64,000 bases of DNA from Celeribacter persicus (GTDB taxonomy: Bacteria; Pseudomonadota; Alphaproteobacteria; Rhodobacterales; Rhodobacteraceae), in the NCBI RefSeq assembly GCF_003050785.1, contig NZ_QAOH01000001.1:434001-498000 (forward strand), in the 5' to 3' direction. Both the position numbers and the translations under genes were made by a program. The notes beneath the pieces were generated by a model, which was given only the letters and a program-made list of their open reading frames with translations, ran no database searches and was not told the origin of the DNA. Of this stretch, positions 5,372 through 17,364 are shown piece after piece (positions within the stretch are counted from its first letter, which is position 1; every line of letters starts with the position of its first letter).

Positions 5372-5392
5372 GAGTATTTTTGCCATCAGAAA
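5372..5392 (+). repeat. GAGTATTT dispersed motif, copy 1
   Basis: GAGTATTTTTGCCATCAGAA lies between deoC and the ALDH gene. It matches GAGTATTTnnnCCA found at 13143, 15880, 36161, 40475 and 48411 (+) and 19767 (-). This copy is not preceded by a hairpin. The ATG overlapping it (5370) opens an 18-codon frame whose TGA overlaps the ALDH start codon. Confidence 0.6.
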
Positions 5393-10766: not shown

Positions 10767-10922
10767 TCAGGGCTCCCGTCTCGCGCTTTTCGGCGATTAA
10801 GTCAACAAAGCTGACGTGACACTCCAAGCACAGCCCCCTTTACAAAAATGATACAAAACCATCACTCAGACGACATTTCCTTTCGTCACACCGCGCGCGT
10901 GTGCAATGACGAGGGACACATC

Positions 10923-13088
10923 ATGAAAAAGCATCTGCTGCTGGCCGCCTCTGCGCTCGCGATCACCGCGACCGGGGCCTCCGCCGAACTGAACTTCAAC
11001 CGCATCGCCTCTTTCGCCACCCCGGACAACATGGCCGTGGGCGAAGACAAGGCGCGGACCACCTCTGCCGAGATCATCGGCGCCTCCGGGGACGGCATGA
11101 CACTGGTCTACACCGACAGCCCCTTGGGCGTGATCGGTCTGATCGACATCACCGATCCGAAAAATCCCTTGCCAAAAGGCAATGTGGAGATGGGCGGCGA
11201 GCCGACCTCCGTCACCGTCATCGGCAACACCGCCTTTGTCGCGGTGAATACGTCTGAGAGCTATGTCGAACCCTCGGGCAAGCTGCTGTCCGTCGATCTG
11301 GCCACCGGTGAGATCACCGGCACCTGCGATCTCGGCGGTCAGCCGGATTCCACCGCGCATAATGACGAAGGCACCATGGTCGCCATCGCGATCGAGAACG
11401 AGCGCGACGAAGACGCGGGCGACGGTCGTGTCGGCCAGATGCCGGCCGGTTACATGGTCACCATCGGCGTGAAAGACGAAGCGCTTGCCTGCGACAGCCT
11501 CAAGAAAATCGACGTCACCGGTCTTGCGGAAATCGCCCCGGAAGATCCCGAACCCGAATTCGTGGACATCAACGCTCTGGGCGAGATGGCCGTGACGATG
11601 CAGGAAAACAACCACATCGTGGTGATGGACAAAGACGGCAATGTGACCGCGCATTTCTCCGCAGGCTCCGTCGATCTCGCCAACATCGACGCCACAGACG
11701 AACGCGCGGCCCTTCTGTTCACTGAGAGCCAGCCGGGGCGTCTGCGTGAGCCCGACGGGCTTCAGTGGATCGACGACGATCACATCATGATTGCCAACGA
11801 GGGCGACATGGACGGCGGATCGCGCTCCATCACCGTGTTCAACAAGGATGGCACGCTGGTCTGGGAATCGGGCGCCGCGTTCGAACATCCGATCATTCAA
11901 GCCGGTCACTATCCGGACAAACGCTCCGACGCCAAGGGCGTGGAACCCGAAGGGATGGAAGTCGCCAGTTTCGGCGACACCACCTATGCTTTCATCCTCT
12001 CCGAGCGCTCCTCCACGGTGTCCGTCTATGACGTGACCGATGCGGAGCACCCGGTGTTCAAGCAACTCCTGCCCTCCGGCATTTCGCCCGAAGGCGCGAT
12101 TGCGATCCCCGAGCGCGGGCTTCTCGCGACAGCGAACGAGTTGGACCTCGTGGAAGACGGCGGCGTGCGTGCCCATGTCATGCTTTACGAACTGCAAGAC
12201 GCCCCCGCCGCCTACCCGACAATCTCCTCCGAGAGCATGGATGAACTCACCGGCTGGGGAGCGAACTCCGGCATGGTCGCGGATGAGGACGGCATGATCT
12301 GGGCCGTAAACGACAGCTTCTACGGTTATCAGCCCACCATCTTCAAAATCGACCCGACACAGACACCGGCGAAGATCGTCGAAGCGATCCGCGTCGTGCG
12401 TGCCAATGGCGATGCCGCGCAGAAGCTCGACATGGAAGGCATCACGCTCGATGGCGAAGGTGGCTTCTGGGTCGCCTCCGAAGGGCGCACCGACCGTGTG
12501 ACCCCGCATGCGCTTTACCATGTGAACGCCAAGGGCGTGATCAAGGAAGAGATCGGCCTGCCCGCCGAGCTTTTGAACAACGAGACACGGTTCGGGTTCG
12601 AAGGCATCACCAAGGTGGGTGACACGCTCTGGATGGCGGTTCAGCGCGAATGGGGCGATGATCCGAAACACACGGTGAAACTCGTCGCCTACAACACCGA
12701 GACCGGTGAATGGGGCGCCGTGCGTTACGAAAAAGCCGCGCCGGATACCGGCTGGGTTGGCCTCTCGGAAATCGTTGCCCATGGCGACTGGTTCTATGTC
12801 ATCGAGCGCGACAACCAGATCGGTGCCGCCGCGAAGATCAAGAAAATCTACCGCATCCCGGCCTCCGACATGGTTCCGGCTCCTCTGGGCAGCGATCTGC
12901 CGGTCGTGTCAAAGGAAGAGGTTCGCGACCTGATCCCGGATCTGAAATCCTGGAACGGTTACGTGGTCGACAAGGTCGAAGGCCTCGCAATCACCAGAGA
13001 CGGCGAGATGTTCGTTTCCACCGACAACGACGGCGTGGACGACAGCTCGGGCGAGACCTTCTTCTGGACCATCGGCAAGGTCGAGTAA
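10923..13088 (+). CDS. Secreted phytase-like esterase / beta-propeller protein
   Basis: The 721-residue exported protein starts at MKKHLLLAASALAITATGASA (signal peptide, cleavage near residue 21). Residues of about 30-410 form a repeated beta-propeller-like region (GVIGLIDITDPKNPLPKGN, NNHIVVMDKDGNVTAHF, ADEFxxPEGMEVA-type segments) like choice-of-anchor/alkaline-phosphatase-associated propellers. Residues of about 430-721 resemble the 'esterase-like activity of phytase' domain (PF13449), with KLDMEGITLDGEGGFWVASEG, FGFEGITKVGDTLWMAVQ and KVEGLAITRDGEMFVSTDND. It may act on organic phosphoesters in the periplasm; the substrate is inferred. The frame extends upstream to 10848, but the signal peptide fixes the start. 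Confidence 0.85.
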   Translation: MKKHLLLAASALAITATGASAELNFNRIASFATPDNMAVGEDKARTTSAEIIGASGDGMTLVYTDSPLGVIGLIDITDPKNPLPKGNVEMGGEPTSVTVIGNTAFVAVNTSESYVEPSGKLLSVDLATGEITGTCDLGGQPDSTAHNDEGTMVAIAIENERDEDAGDGRVGQMPAGYMVTIGVKDEALACDSLKKIDVTGLAEIAPEDPEPEFVDINALGEMAVTMQENNHIVVMDKDGNVTAHFSAGSVDLANIDATDERAALLFTESQPGRLREPDGLQWIDDDHIMIANEGDMDGGSRSITVFNKDGTLVWESGAAFEHPIIQAGHYPDKRSDAKGVEPEGMEVASFGDTTYAFILSERSSTVSVYDVTDAEHPVFKQLLPSGISPEGAIAIPERGLLATANELDLVEDGGVRAHVMLYELQDAPAAYPTISSESMDELTGWGANSGMVADEDGMIWAVNDSFYGYQPTIFKIDPTQTPAKIVEAIRVVRANGDAAQKLDMEGITLDGEGGFWVASEGRTDRVTPHALYHVNAKGVIKEEIGLPAELLNNETRFGFEGITKVGDTLWMAVQREWGDDPKHTVKLVAYNTETGEWGAVRYEKAAPDTGWVGLSEIVAHGDWFYVIERDNQIGAAAKIKKIYRIPASDMVPAPLGSDLPVVSKEEVRDLIPDLKSWNGYVVDKVEGLAITRDGEMFVSTDNDGVDDSSGETFFWTIGKVE

Positions 13089-13110
13089 AAGACACCTCCC
13101 GAAAACGGAA

Positions 13111-13137
13111 ACGCCCGCCGGTTTGGCGGGCGTTTTT
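13111..13137 (+). terminator. Rho-independent terminator of the esterase gene
   Basis: ACGCCCGCC-GGTTT-GGCGGGCGT followed by T's, 22 bp after the stop. An identical copy is at 15848 inside the right repeat. Confidence 0.88.
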
Positions 13138-13142
13138 CATTT

Positions 13143-13164
13143 GAGTATTTTCACCAGAAAGAAG
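13143..13164 (+). repeat. GAGTATTT dispersed motif, copy 2
   Basis: GAGTATTTTCACCAGAAAGA lies 5 bases after the terminator T-run, the arrangement also seen at 15880, 36161 and 40475. Confidence 0.6.
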
Positions 13165-13165
13165 A

Positions 13166-13432
13166 TCAGACTTCGGTCGTCCGTTCGCCCTCGATCACTT
13201 TCGTCTCGACCGTGTTCGGTCCGGCGATCTCGATCCGGCGCGGCTTGAGCGCTTCGGGCACTTCGCGTTTCAGGTCGATGTGCAGCATGCCGTTTTCATG
13301 GCTCGCGCCCACCACCTTCACATGCTCGGCAAGCGTAAAGCGACGCTCGAACGCACGGGTGGCGATGCCGCGATGGAGATAGGTCTTGCCCTTCTCTTCC
13401 TCGCTGTCGGTTTGGCGAGCTGAAATCACCAA
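13166..13432 (-). pseudogene. Truncated hsp20 fragment (C-terminal 88 residues)
   Basis: The frame encodes residues 72-159 of the small heat-shock protein whose intact gene is at 15903-16382. Over the last about 80 residues the proteins are identical. Differences are confined to the first few residues (ISARQTD against VSARKSD). Most DNA mismatches fall at silent positions, so both copies were apparently under protein-level selection until recently. The N-terminal 71 residues, the start codon, ribosome-binding site and promoter are missing, although part of the alpha-crystallin domain and the C-terminal tail remain. It is very probably non-functional. Confidence 0.85.
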
Positions 13433-13761
13433 GTGTTCAGGCCCGGTTCATTCGGCATCAGTTTTTCGGCATCACCGGCGTGATTTCAGGCCTCTTGTGT
13501 TGCGCACAGAGCACGATGTCACAGAAGGCTCGATAAATCCGACAAAAACAGTTGATCTTTCTCGTGCATCGCGATTTCTACCAGACTCGCGAGCAACTGT
13601 TAATGTCTTCACCGAAGGCTAATGTTTTTAGCAAGCCGACACAGGTCCGGGCTTTCCAAACCTAAGACGATATTTGGCAGTGGTCGGCTTTGCTTGCAGG
13701 CGACAACCAATCCACGCAACCCGCGCCTTTTCCACGACAGAACATAACCAAGGATTGGGAT
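13433..13761. other. 329 bp gap upstream of the TonB receptor
   Basis: No convincing gene. It contains an inverted repeat AACAGTTG / CAACTGTT (13547-13554 and 13594-13601) with inner TCGCGA segments, and a direct repeat of TTCGGCATCA near 13457-13482. It should hold the promoter of the receptor gene. I looked for Fur and Irr/ICE-like boxes and found no clear match. The left end is the junction with the hsp20 fragment. Confidence 0.6.
13547..13601 (+). promoter_or_regulatory. Inverted repeat in the TonB-receptor leader/promoter region
   Basis: Eight-base arms AACAGTTG and CAACTGTT enclose 39 bp, within which TCGCGA occurs twice. It could be a leader hairpin or an operator; the function is unassigned. 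Confidence 0.35.
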
Positions 13762-15741
13762 ATGAACACTCGCATGAAACTTACGGGGACAAGTGCCCTT
13801 GCACTTTGTCTCTCCCTTGCGACACTGCCCGTCTTCGCACAAAGCGATGACGAAGTGATCCAACTCGACCAGATCATCATTGCATACCGCGCGGACGGAA
13901 CCCCGGTCTATGCCGGTGACGACACCACGCGGGTCGACTCAGAGGAAGTCGAATCCGCCGGCGCCTCTGGTAAAGTCGATGACGTCCTGCGCGCACAGCC
14001 TTCGACCTTTACGCGCTACAATGCGCAGCAAACCGGCGTTGCCGTCAACATTCGCGGTTTTGAAGGCAATGGTCGTGTTGCTATGGCAATCGACGGCGTA
14101 CCACAGAACTTCCGCTTTACCGGACACGAAGCCATGGGCTTCGCTTATATCGATCCGTTGCTGCTGTCGTCGATCGACATCACCCGTGGCGCCAACACCA
14201 CGGCAGGCGGGACCGGCCTCGCGGGCTCTGTGAACTTCCGCACCATTGATCCTGTCGATCTCGTAGAAGAAGGCGAAGGCTTCGGGAGCCAGGTGAAGCT
14301 GAGCTACGGCGACAATGGCAACAACCGTGCCGGAATGCTCGCCACAGCTTACAGCGGCACCGATTTCGACGTCATGTTCGCGGCGACAAATCGTCAGTCC
14401 GACAATTTCGAAGACGGTGCTGGCAATGAGGTCAGCGATACGGGGCAGGACACGACGTCCTACCTCGGCAAAGTGATCTATCGCATTGATGATAATCAAA
14501 GCCTCAAATTCTCTGCTATGCATTATGAAAGCGAATTTGGTGCGAACAGCTACTATCAGGAGATGACCAACGACACCGTCAGCCTTGGCTACAACCTGAT
14601 CGGTGCCTCACCTCTCGTGAATCTCAGCGTCAATGCCTATTATGCTGAAAACTCGATGCTCTACACCGAATCCATCAGCGGCACGGGCAGCTATGCCGGA
14701 CGTAACCTGATCACCAAGACCCTCGGGGCCAACGTCACCAACACGTCGGAATTCGCCTTCGGAAATTGGCTGGCAACCAGTGTGAATGGCCTGGAGTACT
14801 CCCGTGATGACCTCGGCGGCACAACCGGCAACGTCAACCCTGTGGACGGAGAAACGGCCCGTTTCTCGCTGTTCAGCCAAAACACCTTTGACAATGGGCC
14901 TTGGGAAGTGACGGCGGCCTTCCGCGCGAACAGCTACACGACAAAAGGTGTAAACGTTAACGAAGTGGCGACGGATATCGACAAGAAATCTTTCGACCCG
15001 AAACTCACCATCGGCTATCAGCTCACGGATTGGCTCCAACCCTATGTCAGCGTGTCGCGCACCACGCGAATCCCGACACTGTCGGAAACCCTTCTGGGCG
15101 GCAACCACGGTGACAGCAACCCCTCCTTCTTCGTGCCGAACCCGGACCTCAAACCTGAGGTATCCACGGGCTTCGACATCGGTTTCAACATCGACAAAGC
15201 GGACCTCTTCGTTTCAGGCGACCGCTTGACCGGCCGCGTGAACTACTACGAAATGGACGTTGAAGATTACATCGTGAGCGGTGCTGTCTCATCAGGTGGT
15301 TTTGGCTACGGGTTCTATAACGTCGACGGTACCTCCAAGACCAAAGGCGTTGAAGTCGGTCTGGACTACATGAACGATCTCTATGAGATCGGTTTCGCCT
15401 ACACACATACCGACAGCGACCTTCCGCCGACGACCGACGGACTTGGTGCAAGCCAATATCTGCCGGACGACACCGCGAGCCTGCGCACCGCCGTGCACCT
15501 TCTCGACAACAAGCTGACGGTTGGCGGGATCGGCACCTACGTGTCCACCGGGCCGGATGCAGGCTCGTCCAATGAGGACTATGCGCTTATGGACCTCTTC
15601 GCCAGCTATGAGCTGAGCGAGGCCGTGACGCTTGATGCGAAGCTCACCAACGCCTTCGACAAAGACTATACGCCCTGGCTCACCACCAACGGCAAAGGCC
15701 GCGGTCGCACCATCTATGTCGGGATGAACCTGAATTTCTGA
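13762..15741 (+). CDS. TonB-dependent outer-membrane receptor (heme/hemoglobin-receptor-like)
   Basis: A 659-residue protein with signal peptide MNTRMKLTGTSALALCLSLATLPVFA, then a probable TonB box (DEVIQLDQIIIAY). The plug domain follows (VAVNIRGFEGNGRVAMAIDGVPQ, SIDITRGANTTAGGTGLAGSVNF), then a 22-strand-type barrel ending in Phe (GMNLNF). The barrel has TRIPTLSETLLGG, an NHGD histidine and NPDLKPE, reminiscent of the FRAP/NPDL boxes of heme receptors, so heme is the best guess for its substrate. AAGGA lies 7 bases before the ATG. No ExbBD, TonB or heme ABC transporter lies nearby. The gene sits between two hsp20-derived direct repeats, indicating insertion. Confidence 0.9.
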   Translation: MNTRMKLTGTSALALCLSLATLPVFAQSDDEVIQLDQIIIAYRADGTPVYAGDDTTRVDSEEVESAGASGKVDDVLRAQPSTFTRYNAQQTGVAVNIRGFEGNGRVAMAIDGVPQNFRFTGHEAMGFAYIDPLLLSSIDITRGANTTAGGTGLAGSVNFRTIDPVDLVEEGEGFGSQVKLSYGDNGNNRAGMLATAYSGTDFDVMFAATNRQSDNFEDGAGNEVSDTGQDTTSYLGKVIYRIDDNQSLKFSAMHYESEFGANSYYQEMTNDTVSLGYNLIGASPLVNLSVNAYYAENSMLYTESISGTGSYAGRNLITKTLGANVTNTSEFAFGNWLATSVNGLEYSRDDLGGTTGNVNPVDGETARFSLFSQNTFDNGPWEVTAAFRANSYTTKGVNVNEVATDIDKKSFDPKLTIGYQLTDWLQPYVSVSRTTRIPTLSETLLGGNHGDSNPSFFVPNPDLKPEVSTGFDIGFNIDKADLFVSGDRLTGRVNYYEMDVEDYIVSGAVSSGGFGYGFYNVDGTSKTKGVEVGLDYMNDLYEIGFAYTHTDSDLPPTTDGLGASQYLPDDTASLRTAVHLLDNKLTVGGIGTYVSTGPDAGSSNEDYALMDLFASYELSEAVTLDAKLTNAFDKDYTPWLTTNGKGRGRTIYVGMNLNF

Positions 15742-15847
15742 GCGTTATGTGGCCTCAGCTTTGCTGAACTGCTCCCGTCAGCAGCCTGCAAAAAGTTGCC
15801 GACAACTGGGGCTGGGACTTCCCTTATCAATGCACATTCGTTTCGAA

Positions 15848-15874
15848 ACGCCCGCCGGTTTGGCGGGCGTTTTT
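15848..15874 (+). terminator. Rho-independent terminator downstream of the TonB receptor
   Basis: Copy of the terminator at 13111: ACGCCCGCC-GGTTT-GGCGGGCGT with a T-run. It now ends the receptor transcript about 105 bp after its stop. Confidence 0.85.
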
Positions 15875-15879
15875 CATTT

Positions 15880-15901
15880 GAGTATTTTCACCAGGAAGAA
15901 G
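15880..15901 (+). repeat. GAGTATTT dispersed motif, copy 3
   Basis: GAGTATTTTCACCAGGAAGA, duplicate of copy 2 within the right repeat and again just after a terminator. Confidence 0.6.
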
Positions 15902-15902
15902 A

Positions 15903-16382
15903 TCAGACTTCGGTCGTCCGTTCGCCCTCAATCACTTTCGTCTCGACCGTGTTCGGTCCAGCGATCTCGATCCGGCGCGGCTTGAGCGCTTCGGGCACTT
16001 CGCGTTTCAGGTCGATGTGCAGCATACCGTTTTCATGGCTCGCGCCCACCACCTTTACATGCTCGGCCAAGGTAAAGCGGCGCTCAAAGGCGCGGGTGGC
16101 GATGCCACGATGGAGATAGGTCTTGCCCTTCTCTTCCTCGCTGTCGGATTTGCGGGCGGAAACCACCAGAGCGTGCTCGCGCTGCTCGATGGCGATGTCT
16201 TCGGTCGAGAACCCGGCGACGGCGAGCGAAATGCGCCAAGCGTCTTCCGCGGTTTTCTCGATGTTATAGGGCGGGTAGCTGGGCTGGCTGACGTCCTGAG
16301 TCAGGACCCGGTCCATCAAGTCGGCGATCTGGTCGAAACCGACGGTGGCACGGTAGAGCGGAGCAAGGTCAAAGTTGCGCAT
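15903..16382 (-). CDS. Small heat-shock protein, Hsp20/IbpA family
   Basis: The 159-residue ATP-independent holdase binds unfolding proteins. It begins MRNFDLAPLYRATVGFD, as alphaproteobacterial IbpA-like proteins do. The alpha-crystallin domain is at about 35-130 (YNIEKTAEDAWRISLAVAGFSTEDI, RGIATRAFERRFTLAEHV, ENGMLHIDLKREVPE) and a C-terminal extension carries a PRRIEI motif. GGAGG lies 6 bases before the ATG. A heat-shock-type promoter and a 75 bp nested palindrome lie upstream. The 3' half is duplicated at 13166-13432. Confidence 0.93.
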   Translation of the reverse strand: MRNFDLAPLYRATVGFDQIADLMDRVLTQDVSQPSYPPYNIEKTAEDAWRISLAVAGFSTEDIAIEQREHALVVSARKSDSEEEKGKTYLHRGIATRAFERRFTLAEHVKVVGASHENGMLHIDLKREVPEALKPRRIEIAGPNTVETKVIEGERTTEV

Positions 16383-16401
16383 GGGTATCCTCCATTGAGC
16401 G

Positions 16402-16476
16402 ATTCCAGATGTAATGCCTTCCGGTGTGCGGACAGGCAGAATGCCGGACCCTGTTCAGGCATCCGACATCTGGAAT
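16402..16476 (-). promoter_or_regulatory. 75 bp nested inverted repeat upstream of hsp20
   Basis: The outer arms ATTCCAGATGT (16402-16412) and ACATCTGGAAT (16466-16476) are perfect. Inside them ATGCCT pairs with AGGCAT, and CCGG with CCGG. The element ends 19 bp before the hsp20 start codon and just before its Shine-Dalgarno. It could fold in the 5' leader (RNA-thermometer-like control) or act as a DNA dyad. It partly overlaps the candidate -10, so the true transcription start decides. Confidence 0.55.
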
Positions 16477-16508: not shown

Positions 16509-17309
16509 TTACTGCCCGAGCAAGCCCAGCGCGAATTTTGTGTCGGTCAGGGCAGGCATAGGACCCGCGTCCACCTTCTTGAATCGGCTTTGACCGGTGG
16601 CTGCCATCTGCAGGAGATCGGCCAGAGCACCATCGAGAGAGGTGCCGACGGACACTCGTTCGCCCCGGAAATTCGCCTTGGCCGAAACCACGGAAACGAT
16701 GCGTGGCACGGCCCCGGTCATGTCGAAAATAGGTGCGCCCGAGGACCCGAAATCGACCTCACAGGAGGTCACAAGCACGCCGCCCTGACGCGCCATGACA
16801 TGACAGACTTCCTGCAAGGAGGGGCTTTCGGCGCGATCATGCGCATAGGAGACAACTCCCACCGCCTGACCTTTCTCGGGTCGTACGGAAGTCGGGAAGG
16901 GCCGCACGGACGTGTTGCGCACCGGCAGCGACAACTCGACCAGCGCCACGTCATTGACCAACCGATCATGAAGATTGTCGCTCGCCAGAGAGAACCCCGG
17001 ATGGACATAGATCGCCTTGGCCGTGCGATAGGCCTGAGCCTGACCGTTGCGCCACCCCGCTCTGAACGTGACATCGTTTGGCTGATGCGCCTGCTTGCTG
17101 TAAATGTCGAACATGCAATGGGCGGCGGTCAACACGAGACGCTCAGTGATCAGTGTGCCGGTGCAGAAACTGCGCCCTGCAAAATCCAGTCGTCCGACCG
17201 CTTCCCATCCCCGGCTATCATCGCCTGTGCGAAAGCTCTTGAGCGCGCTGTCTGCCTGTGCCGCGCCCGCCGCAAGTATCAGGGAAAAGATGATCAGCAA
17301 TTTTTTCAT
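16509..17309 (-). CDS. Secreted trypsin-like serine protease
   Basis: A 266-residue S1-type peptidase with signal peptide MKKLLIIFSLILAAGAAQA. The catalytic triad is visible: His64 in LTAAHC, Asp120 in NDVALVEL, and Ser190 in DFGSSGAP. Cys49/Cys65 and Cys169/Cys183 are spaced as trypsin-fold disulfides. It is expected in the periplasm or secreted; the substrate is unknown. The start at 17309 is chosen because the signal peptide begins there and GAGG precedes it; the frame runs four codons further up to a TTG. The gene ends just before the hsp20 promoter. Confidence 0.9.
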   Translation of the reverse strand: MKKLLIIFSLILAAGAAQADSALKSFRTGDDSRGWEAVGRLDFAGRSFCTGTLITERLVLTAAHCMFDIYSKQAHQPNDVTFRAGWRNGQAQAYRTAKAIYVHPGFSLASDNLHDRLVNDVALVELSLPVRNTSVRPFPTSVRPEKGQAVGVVSYAHDRAESPSLQEVCHVMARQGGVLVTSCEVDFGSSGAPIFDMTGAVPRIVSVVSAKANFRGERVSVGTSLDGALADLLQMAATGQSRFKKVDAGPMPALTDTKFALGLLGQ

Positions 17310-17364
17310 GTCAGTCCTCAAACCCTGTTCGCCCCTCCAGCGCTAAAGAGACATCTGGGCGGGA

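Follow-up and report, generated by a model that had tools for sequence, protein, structure and literature searches.

Probable homology-anchored acquisition of a TonB-dependent heme-type receptor gene at the hsp20 locus of Celeribacter persicus

Among the described systems that most resemble the locus reported here, a TonB-dependent receptor gene lying between two hsp20-derived direct repeats in Celeribacter persicus, are the displaced immunity-gene arrays of the type VI system in Vibrio cholerae, in which a conserved gene part serves as the anchor, foreign DNA is added and the old downstream part is displaced yet kept, with no integrase known in the accounts given (PMC5361080, PMC2884548). Homology-facilitated illegitimate recombination (HFIR) has been offered to explain these displaced genes, and in Vibrio it too has the standing of a proposal (PMC5361080). 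In Escherichia coli, circularisation of DNA followed by a single crossover would leave the new DNA flanked by direct repeats of the homologous stretch (PMC3240628), while in the transformation merodiploids of Streptococcus pneumoniae repeats come to flank DNA that was added or duplicated when an incoming fragment paired by homology (PMC3784515); a further paper, in the part concerned, merely mentions additive recombination (PMC5527308). The C. persicus locus lies in the 64,000-nucleotide stretch of DNA analysed here (the window), which covers positions 434001-498000 of contig C1 (582 kb) in a draft genome of 4.3 Mb and 94 contigs. It differs from the V. cholerae arrays in that a heat-shock gene would be the anchor and a nutrient receptor the cargo, in a single event, from the E. 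coli case, described for laboratory constructs, in that a circle is here only a model drawn from sequence, and from the pneumococcal merodiploids in scale (~100-900 kb there versus 325 bp here).

The repeat search of the window reported, at a minimum length of 40 nt, one pair only, in direct orientation at 13108-13407 and 15845-16144 with a spacing of 2737. A direct count gave 286 of 300 identical bases, and blastn lengthened the match to 324 bp at 94.4% identity, ending at window position 13431. The full segment measures 325 bp (13108-13432 and 15845-16169, both described on the minus strand) and comprises a hairpin terminator, the GAGTATTT motif and the last 88 codons of hsp20; on the left the copies diverge at 13107/15844, and similarity to hsp20 is lost near 13432 on the right. 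These three analyses bear out the repeats, with a receptor gene between them (13762-15741, plus strand), that a sequence-only reading of this DNA had described. Open reading frames and alignment also agree with its account of the two sides: the left copy follows directly after the stop codon of an esterase gene and holds the orphaned hsp20 codons (13166-13432) without a start codon of their own, and the right copy runs on into a full hsp20 gene of 159 codons (15903-16382, minus strand).

The insertion is thus bordered by two unlike hsp20 3' ends, both of functional type. It holds one recognised gene, the receptor, and has a GC content of 55.7% compared with 60.1% for the window; the receptor is preceded by 329 bp of presumed promoter region (13433-13761, plus strand; GC 0.508), and the DNA between its stop codon and the right repeat (15742-15844, plus strand) is dissimilar to the left flank of the left copy. 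An assembly artefact has in its favour that repeats can misjoin in a draft of 94 contigs, but 14 of the 300 positions distinguish the two copies, their flanks are unlike, the repeat, at 300 bp, is short, and some bases of the left copy are absent from the right one; we regard this as the least credible of the explanations considered. Across the whole contig, blastn (E 1e-5) found a single further pair in direct orientation that reaches 100 bp and 85% identity and lies less than 30 kb apart; this is a 198-bp tandem at C1:290759-291178, 99.5% identical and 222 bp from start to start.

DNA of the locus was matched in 18 of the 20 genus genomes, that of C. persicus included, with G008 and G017 giving no match. 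Since a plain convergent esterase-hsp20 junction was present in 15 of the 17 relatives, the comparison supports the view that the receptor segment is an insertion; the sequence-only reading had pointed to such an intact, receptor-free junction as the thing to look for. Only 83-115 bp separate the aligned C-termini of esterase and hsp20 in these 15 relatives, so the receptor cannot fit there. For the other two (G005 and G012) neither an esterase nor a receptor match lay within the fetched 1.5-kb flanks, and at the regions examined none of the 17 relatives had the receptor beside hsp20. We also surveyed hsp20 more widely, taking the best 80 of 505 matches in a genome contig collection (16 of the 80 loci were shorter than 12 kb). 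No second hsp20 match was found in the flanks of any of the 80, either at E 1e-20 or at 1e-5, and our own locus, serving as positive control, gave both the receptor and the second hsp20. As far as sequence matches can tell, this survey speaks against a recurrent element targeted to hsp20. That the receptor and one hsp20 3' end form a homology-targeted mobile unit, which would be excised as a 2.74-kb circle when RecA recombines the repeats and would re-enter related strains at hsp20 without an enzyme of its own, is in our estimate highly improbable.

The receptor (659 amino acids) is intact, carries plug and barrel domains (PF07715, PF00593) and matches the heme/hemoglobin model TIGR01785 at 353.1 bits, over the curated cut-off of 316.85; its sequence also matches HasR and ShuA in the PDB. 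Two histidines, His122 and His449, the putative heme ligands of plug and loop, are invariant across six aligned receptors, the second being one position off in the HasR alignment. With a limit of E 1e-30, 9 of the 20 genus genomes (own included) contain relatives of the receptor; the gene itself aside, all of these are 32-34% identical in amino acids and located elsewhere. At a stricter limit, 6 of 394 genomes in a family sample and 7 of 390 in an order sample matched, again with the own genome included and in sets that overlap one another and the genus set, and the best other match reached 51% and 53% amino-acid identity, respectively. Plasmid records contained two relatives, at 49% (a Rhodovulum plasmid) and 44%, both adjoining a heme ATP-binding cassette (ABC) operon. 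A peptide-pattern search of the genome contig collection found no relative of the receptor. These comparisons mark the receptor as foreign to the 20 genus genomes, and no donor was found among these, the family and order samples or the plasmids, 53% being the best amino-acid identity.

The differences between the two hsp20 copies bear on how the repeats arose. Between 13166 and 13407, where 79 codons can be compared, 11 codons are changed at 12 bases, and all the changes are synonymous; the chance of 12 out of 12 is ~1.2e-7 at a synonymous fraction of 0.26 for random mutation, an approximate figure as one codon has two changes. The orphan end thus shows zero amino-acid changes across the 79 codons up to 13407. 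Both copies hold bases that are derived relative to those of the relatives, they are sisters in the tree (support 0.984), and the distance between them is comparable to that separating certain congeners that neighbour each other in this tree. On the synonymous-only pattern we reject the idea that hsp20 was duplicated in place and the left copy then decayed, since the changes gathered by an orphan after duplication should mostly alter amino acids. The comparison indicates instead that the copies are two alleles which diverged while functional, and it points to another lineage as the source of one hsp20 piece. It follows that the allele split is older than the insertion, or that an imported allele has since taken the place of one copy, and the orphan's lack of amino-acid change over 79 codons makes the event recent relative to the split.

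The second of these options belongs to a further explanation, in which an unknown element would have inserted with an identical 325-bp target duplication and the right hsp20 would later have been overwritten by an imported allele. Synonymous-only differences are expected there as well, but it needs both an unknown element that duplicates hundreds of bases and a second event. Moreover, of the 19 reading frames nearby Pfam assigned none to a transposase or recombinase (four had no family match), in line with what the sequence-only reading had noted. It also stands against this explanation that, with the limit relaxed to E 1e-5, none of the 80 surveyed loci had a second hsp20 match, while our own locus did. 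We hold this explanation to be very unlikely.

Taken as a whole, a homology-driven additive acquisition is very probably what happened at this locus, and the part of this explanation with the better support is that DNA from a related lineage took part in recombination. The repeats, at ~325 bp and 94-96% identity, are unlike the short identical repeats of att type, and neither an integrase nor a transposase, such as an integrase-type island would have, was recognised in the insert or in the 19 reading frames around it. As in HFIR, foreign DNA lies beside a homologous anchor: the receptor, foreign to the congeners, adjoins the hsp20 homology. Our tentative first choice, held with a little less than even confidence, is a one-ended, HFIR-like integration of DNA from a closely related lineage. 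The donor would have carried receptor, terminator and hsp20 side by side. One end of the fragment would have recombined homologously within the recipient hsp20, the anchor, with the donor's hsp20 3' end and terminator becoming the right copy, and its far end, which lies 329 bp before the receptor gene, would have been joined illegitimately to codon 72 of the resident hsp20 (13432/13433). The last 88 resident codons would have stayed with the esterase as an orphan, the left copy. Such an event would retain an intact hsp20 and place a terminator-like hairpin behind the receptor, and the insert could be excised again by RecA acting on the two repeats. The simplest histories would require a single new joint, 13432/13433, provided that receptor, terminator and hsp20 were adjacent in the donor, whose own receptor-hsp20 joint would then lie just before the hairpin at 15844/15845. 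The insert borders carry two allele types, and the assignment of the left one to the recipient and of the right one to the donor is provisional.

We prefer this version because it needs no circle, because the displaced gene parts of V. cholerae have been proposed to arise likewise, and because the genome has ComEC and a gene transfer agent (GTA) TIM-barrel gene, from which DNA uptake and GTA transfer are conceivable. Several points weigh against it. ComEC is widespread, being found in 10 of 14 control genomes too, and neither gene is in itself proof of uptake. HFIR is reported to run several orders of magnitude below ordinary recombination (PMC5361080), and at 3e-10 per recipient in E. coli conjugation (PMC3240628). 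In the same E. coli work linear DNA was degraded, or circularised and integrated by single crossover, which favours a circle (PMC3240628). None of the 80 surveyed hsp20 loci had a receptor relative in its flanks (tblastn 1e-10), leaving us with no donor in which the receptor adjoins hsp20; a receptor accompanied by an hsp20 remnant elsewhere, for which the sequence-only reading had suggested a search, was thus not found at these loci. The synonymous-only pattern could also come from replacement of the right hsp20 by an imported allele after an identical duplication. Finally, in the tail of the repeat (13408-13432) 6 of 25 bases differ, giving three conservative amino-acid changes, and more than one recombination event is possible on this evidence; the same stretch is more variable in the nine nearest congeners too (mean identity 0.786 versus 0.844).

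A circular intermediate would give the same anatomy. Here a donor piece of ~2.74 kb, consisting of the receptor, the terminator and the hsp20 3' end and either ligated into a circle or plasmid-borne, would have entered by one crossover in the shared 325 bp. The anatomy fits this exactly, again with one new joint at 13432/13433 given a donor with receptor, terminator and hsp20; in E. coli, linear DNA is reported to be ligated into circles that integrate through a RecA-dependent single crossover, HFIR having been far rarer there (PMC3240628), and two related receptors sit on plasmids. But these plasmid relatives are just 44-49% identical, no plasmid record covered 80% of the query in a DNA search, and no plasmid backbone gene was recognised in the insert, with its one recognised gene. 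Since HFIR is reported to be rare and linear DNA to be circularised in E. coli, we lowered our confidence in the HFIR-like version from an even chance to slightly below it and raised that in the circle, which we see as possible though rather unlikely.

In the third route to this anatomy, an incoming fragment with receptor DNA and hsp20-terminator homology would bridge the sister chromosomes, which would exchange unequally, in the manner of the pneumococcal merodiploids. The model has been shown for S. pneumoniae, where the cases are duplications of ~100 to 900 kb between incomplete insertion sequence (IS) copies (PMC3784515), and it yields repeats bordering added DNA; nothing at the hsp20 locus requires it, however, and we think it improbable. 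Circle, one-ended linear integration and unequal interchromatid exchange give identical resulting anatomies. The sequence-only reading, which had named a single crossover with a circular or looped molecule, is thus supported as to the insertion; its circle is a possible vehicle that fits nearly as well as the HFIR-like integration we prefer, and is one of three models with the same anatomy. That one hsp20 piece might stem from another lineage was not part of that reading. Its suggestion of a route into core genomes without mobile-element machinery is plausible, and such routes have already been described in other bacteria (PMC5361080, PMC2884548, PMC3240628). The event looks like ordinary DNA uptake and recombination and not a new kind of mobile element, and its general interest is modest because the mechanisms considered are already known from other bacteria. 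What the locus offers is a simple, single-gene case, with empty sites in relatives, of an outer-membrane nutrient receptor joining a core chromosome region without recognisable mobile-element machinery, and a handy test, in that synonymous-only differences between border repeats separate an imported allele from duplication in place and decay.

The gene content of the genome suggests what the receptor does. As in Ruegeria sp. TM1040, a heme-type TonB receptor and hmuSTUV are found in the same genome; in Ruegeria the receptor, HmuR, and the transporter form one cluster, whereas here the receptor stands alone beside hsp20 (PMC5225302). The C. persicus hmuSTUV operon lies elsewhere (contig C18, 44000-58703) with no receptor beside it, and the likeliest role of the receptor is uptake of heme or hemoproteins to supply this operon. 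Across the genus a different receptor adjoins hmuS at 10 of 18 loci (17 genomes, one with two partial matches), and at the hmuS loci of five congeners (G004, G005, G013, G015 and G016) three receptor queries found no receptor within the 1.5-kb flanks. A second heme-type receptor is encoded in the C. persicus genome on contig C7 (280 bits, below the subfamily cut-off of 317). The idea that the inserted receptor repaired a loss from the hmu operon is weakened by these five congeners, which also have no receptor beside hmuS, and by the receptor on C7; judging from gene content, the inserted gene is probably an additional heme receptor and not a rescue, and which receptor is used seems to change over time within the genus. 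In congener G018 the hmuS matches fall in two halves on contig C1 (1240627-1241178 and 1280206-1280673), ~40 kb apart, as if split by an insertion or rearrangement.

The hairpin native to the esterase junction (13105-13142, no strand assigned) folds strongly (-23.2 kcal/mol, z -4.4), yet the consensus terminator scan did not list it. In the right repeat it now stands behind the receptor as well. The same stem was read by eye at the esterase-hsp20 junction in 13 of 17 aligned relatives, with a different stem in three. The terminator and GAGTATTT motif named in the sequence-only reading are therefore present, the first as a strong fold that the scan leaves unlisted and the second as a motif that is not special to the repeat: a genome-wide scan counted 74 occurrences of GAGTATTT-(0-10)-CCA and 12 of the reversed control. 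The window holds seven (0.07 expected), at 5372, 13143, 15880, 19767 (minus strand), 36161, 40475 and 48411, and a literature search on the motif gave nothing relevant. On contig C1, 12 of 15 GAGTATTTNNNCCA sites are followed by TCAGAAA or AGAAGAA, some directly behind a hairpin (read by eye). In the non-coding DNA of the insert, a scan for sigma-70-type promoters upstream of the receptor (13433-13761) found no site, an Rfam search gave sub-threshold matches only and no RNA family, and 13530-13761 folded no better than shuffled sequence. A 10-bp perfect inverted repeat, CTGAAATCAC (13420-13429 and 13480-13489), spans the left junction, and the left/right differences at 13421 and 13426 fall inside it; we did not use it as evidence, as 2.5% of 120-nt stretches drawn at random from the window contain an inverted repeat of equal length.

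As for the neighbouring genes, the esterase (10848-13088, plus strand) is an esterase-like-phytase/choice-of-anchor I protein (PF13449 at 1.6e-57, PF22494), and a trypsin-like serine protease (16509-17321, minus strand; PF00089) lies to the right. The intact hsp20 product (159 amino acids) is of IbpA type (PF00011 at 1.9e-18); it matched the IbpA and IbpB models under their cut-offs (NF008013 IbpA: 8.7e-45, 152 bits, cut-off 212), and its closest named match was in C. ethanolicus NH195, at 96% amino-acid identity. Upstream of it (16376-16466, minus strand) the model of the ROSE RNA thermometer matches weakly (26.8 bits against a gathering threshold of 45, E 0.39), and such an element would fit a heat-shock gene.

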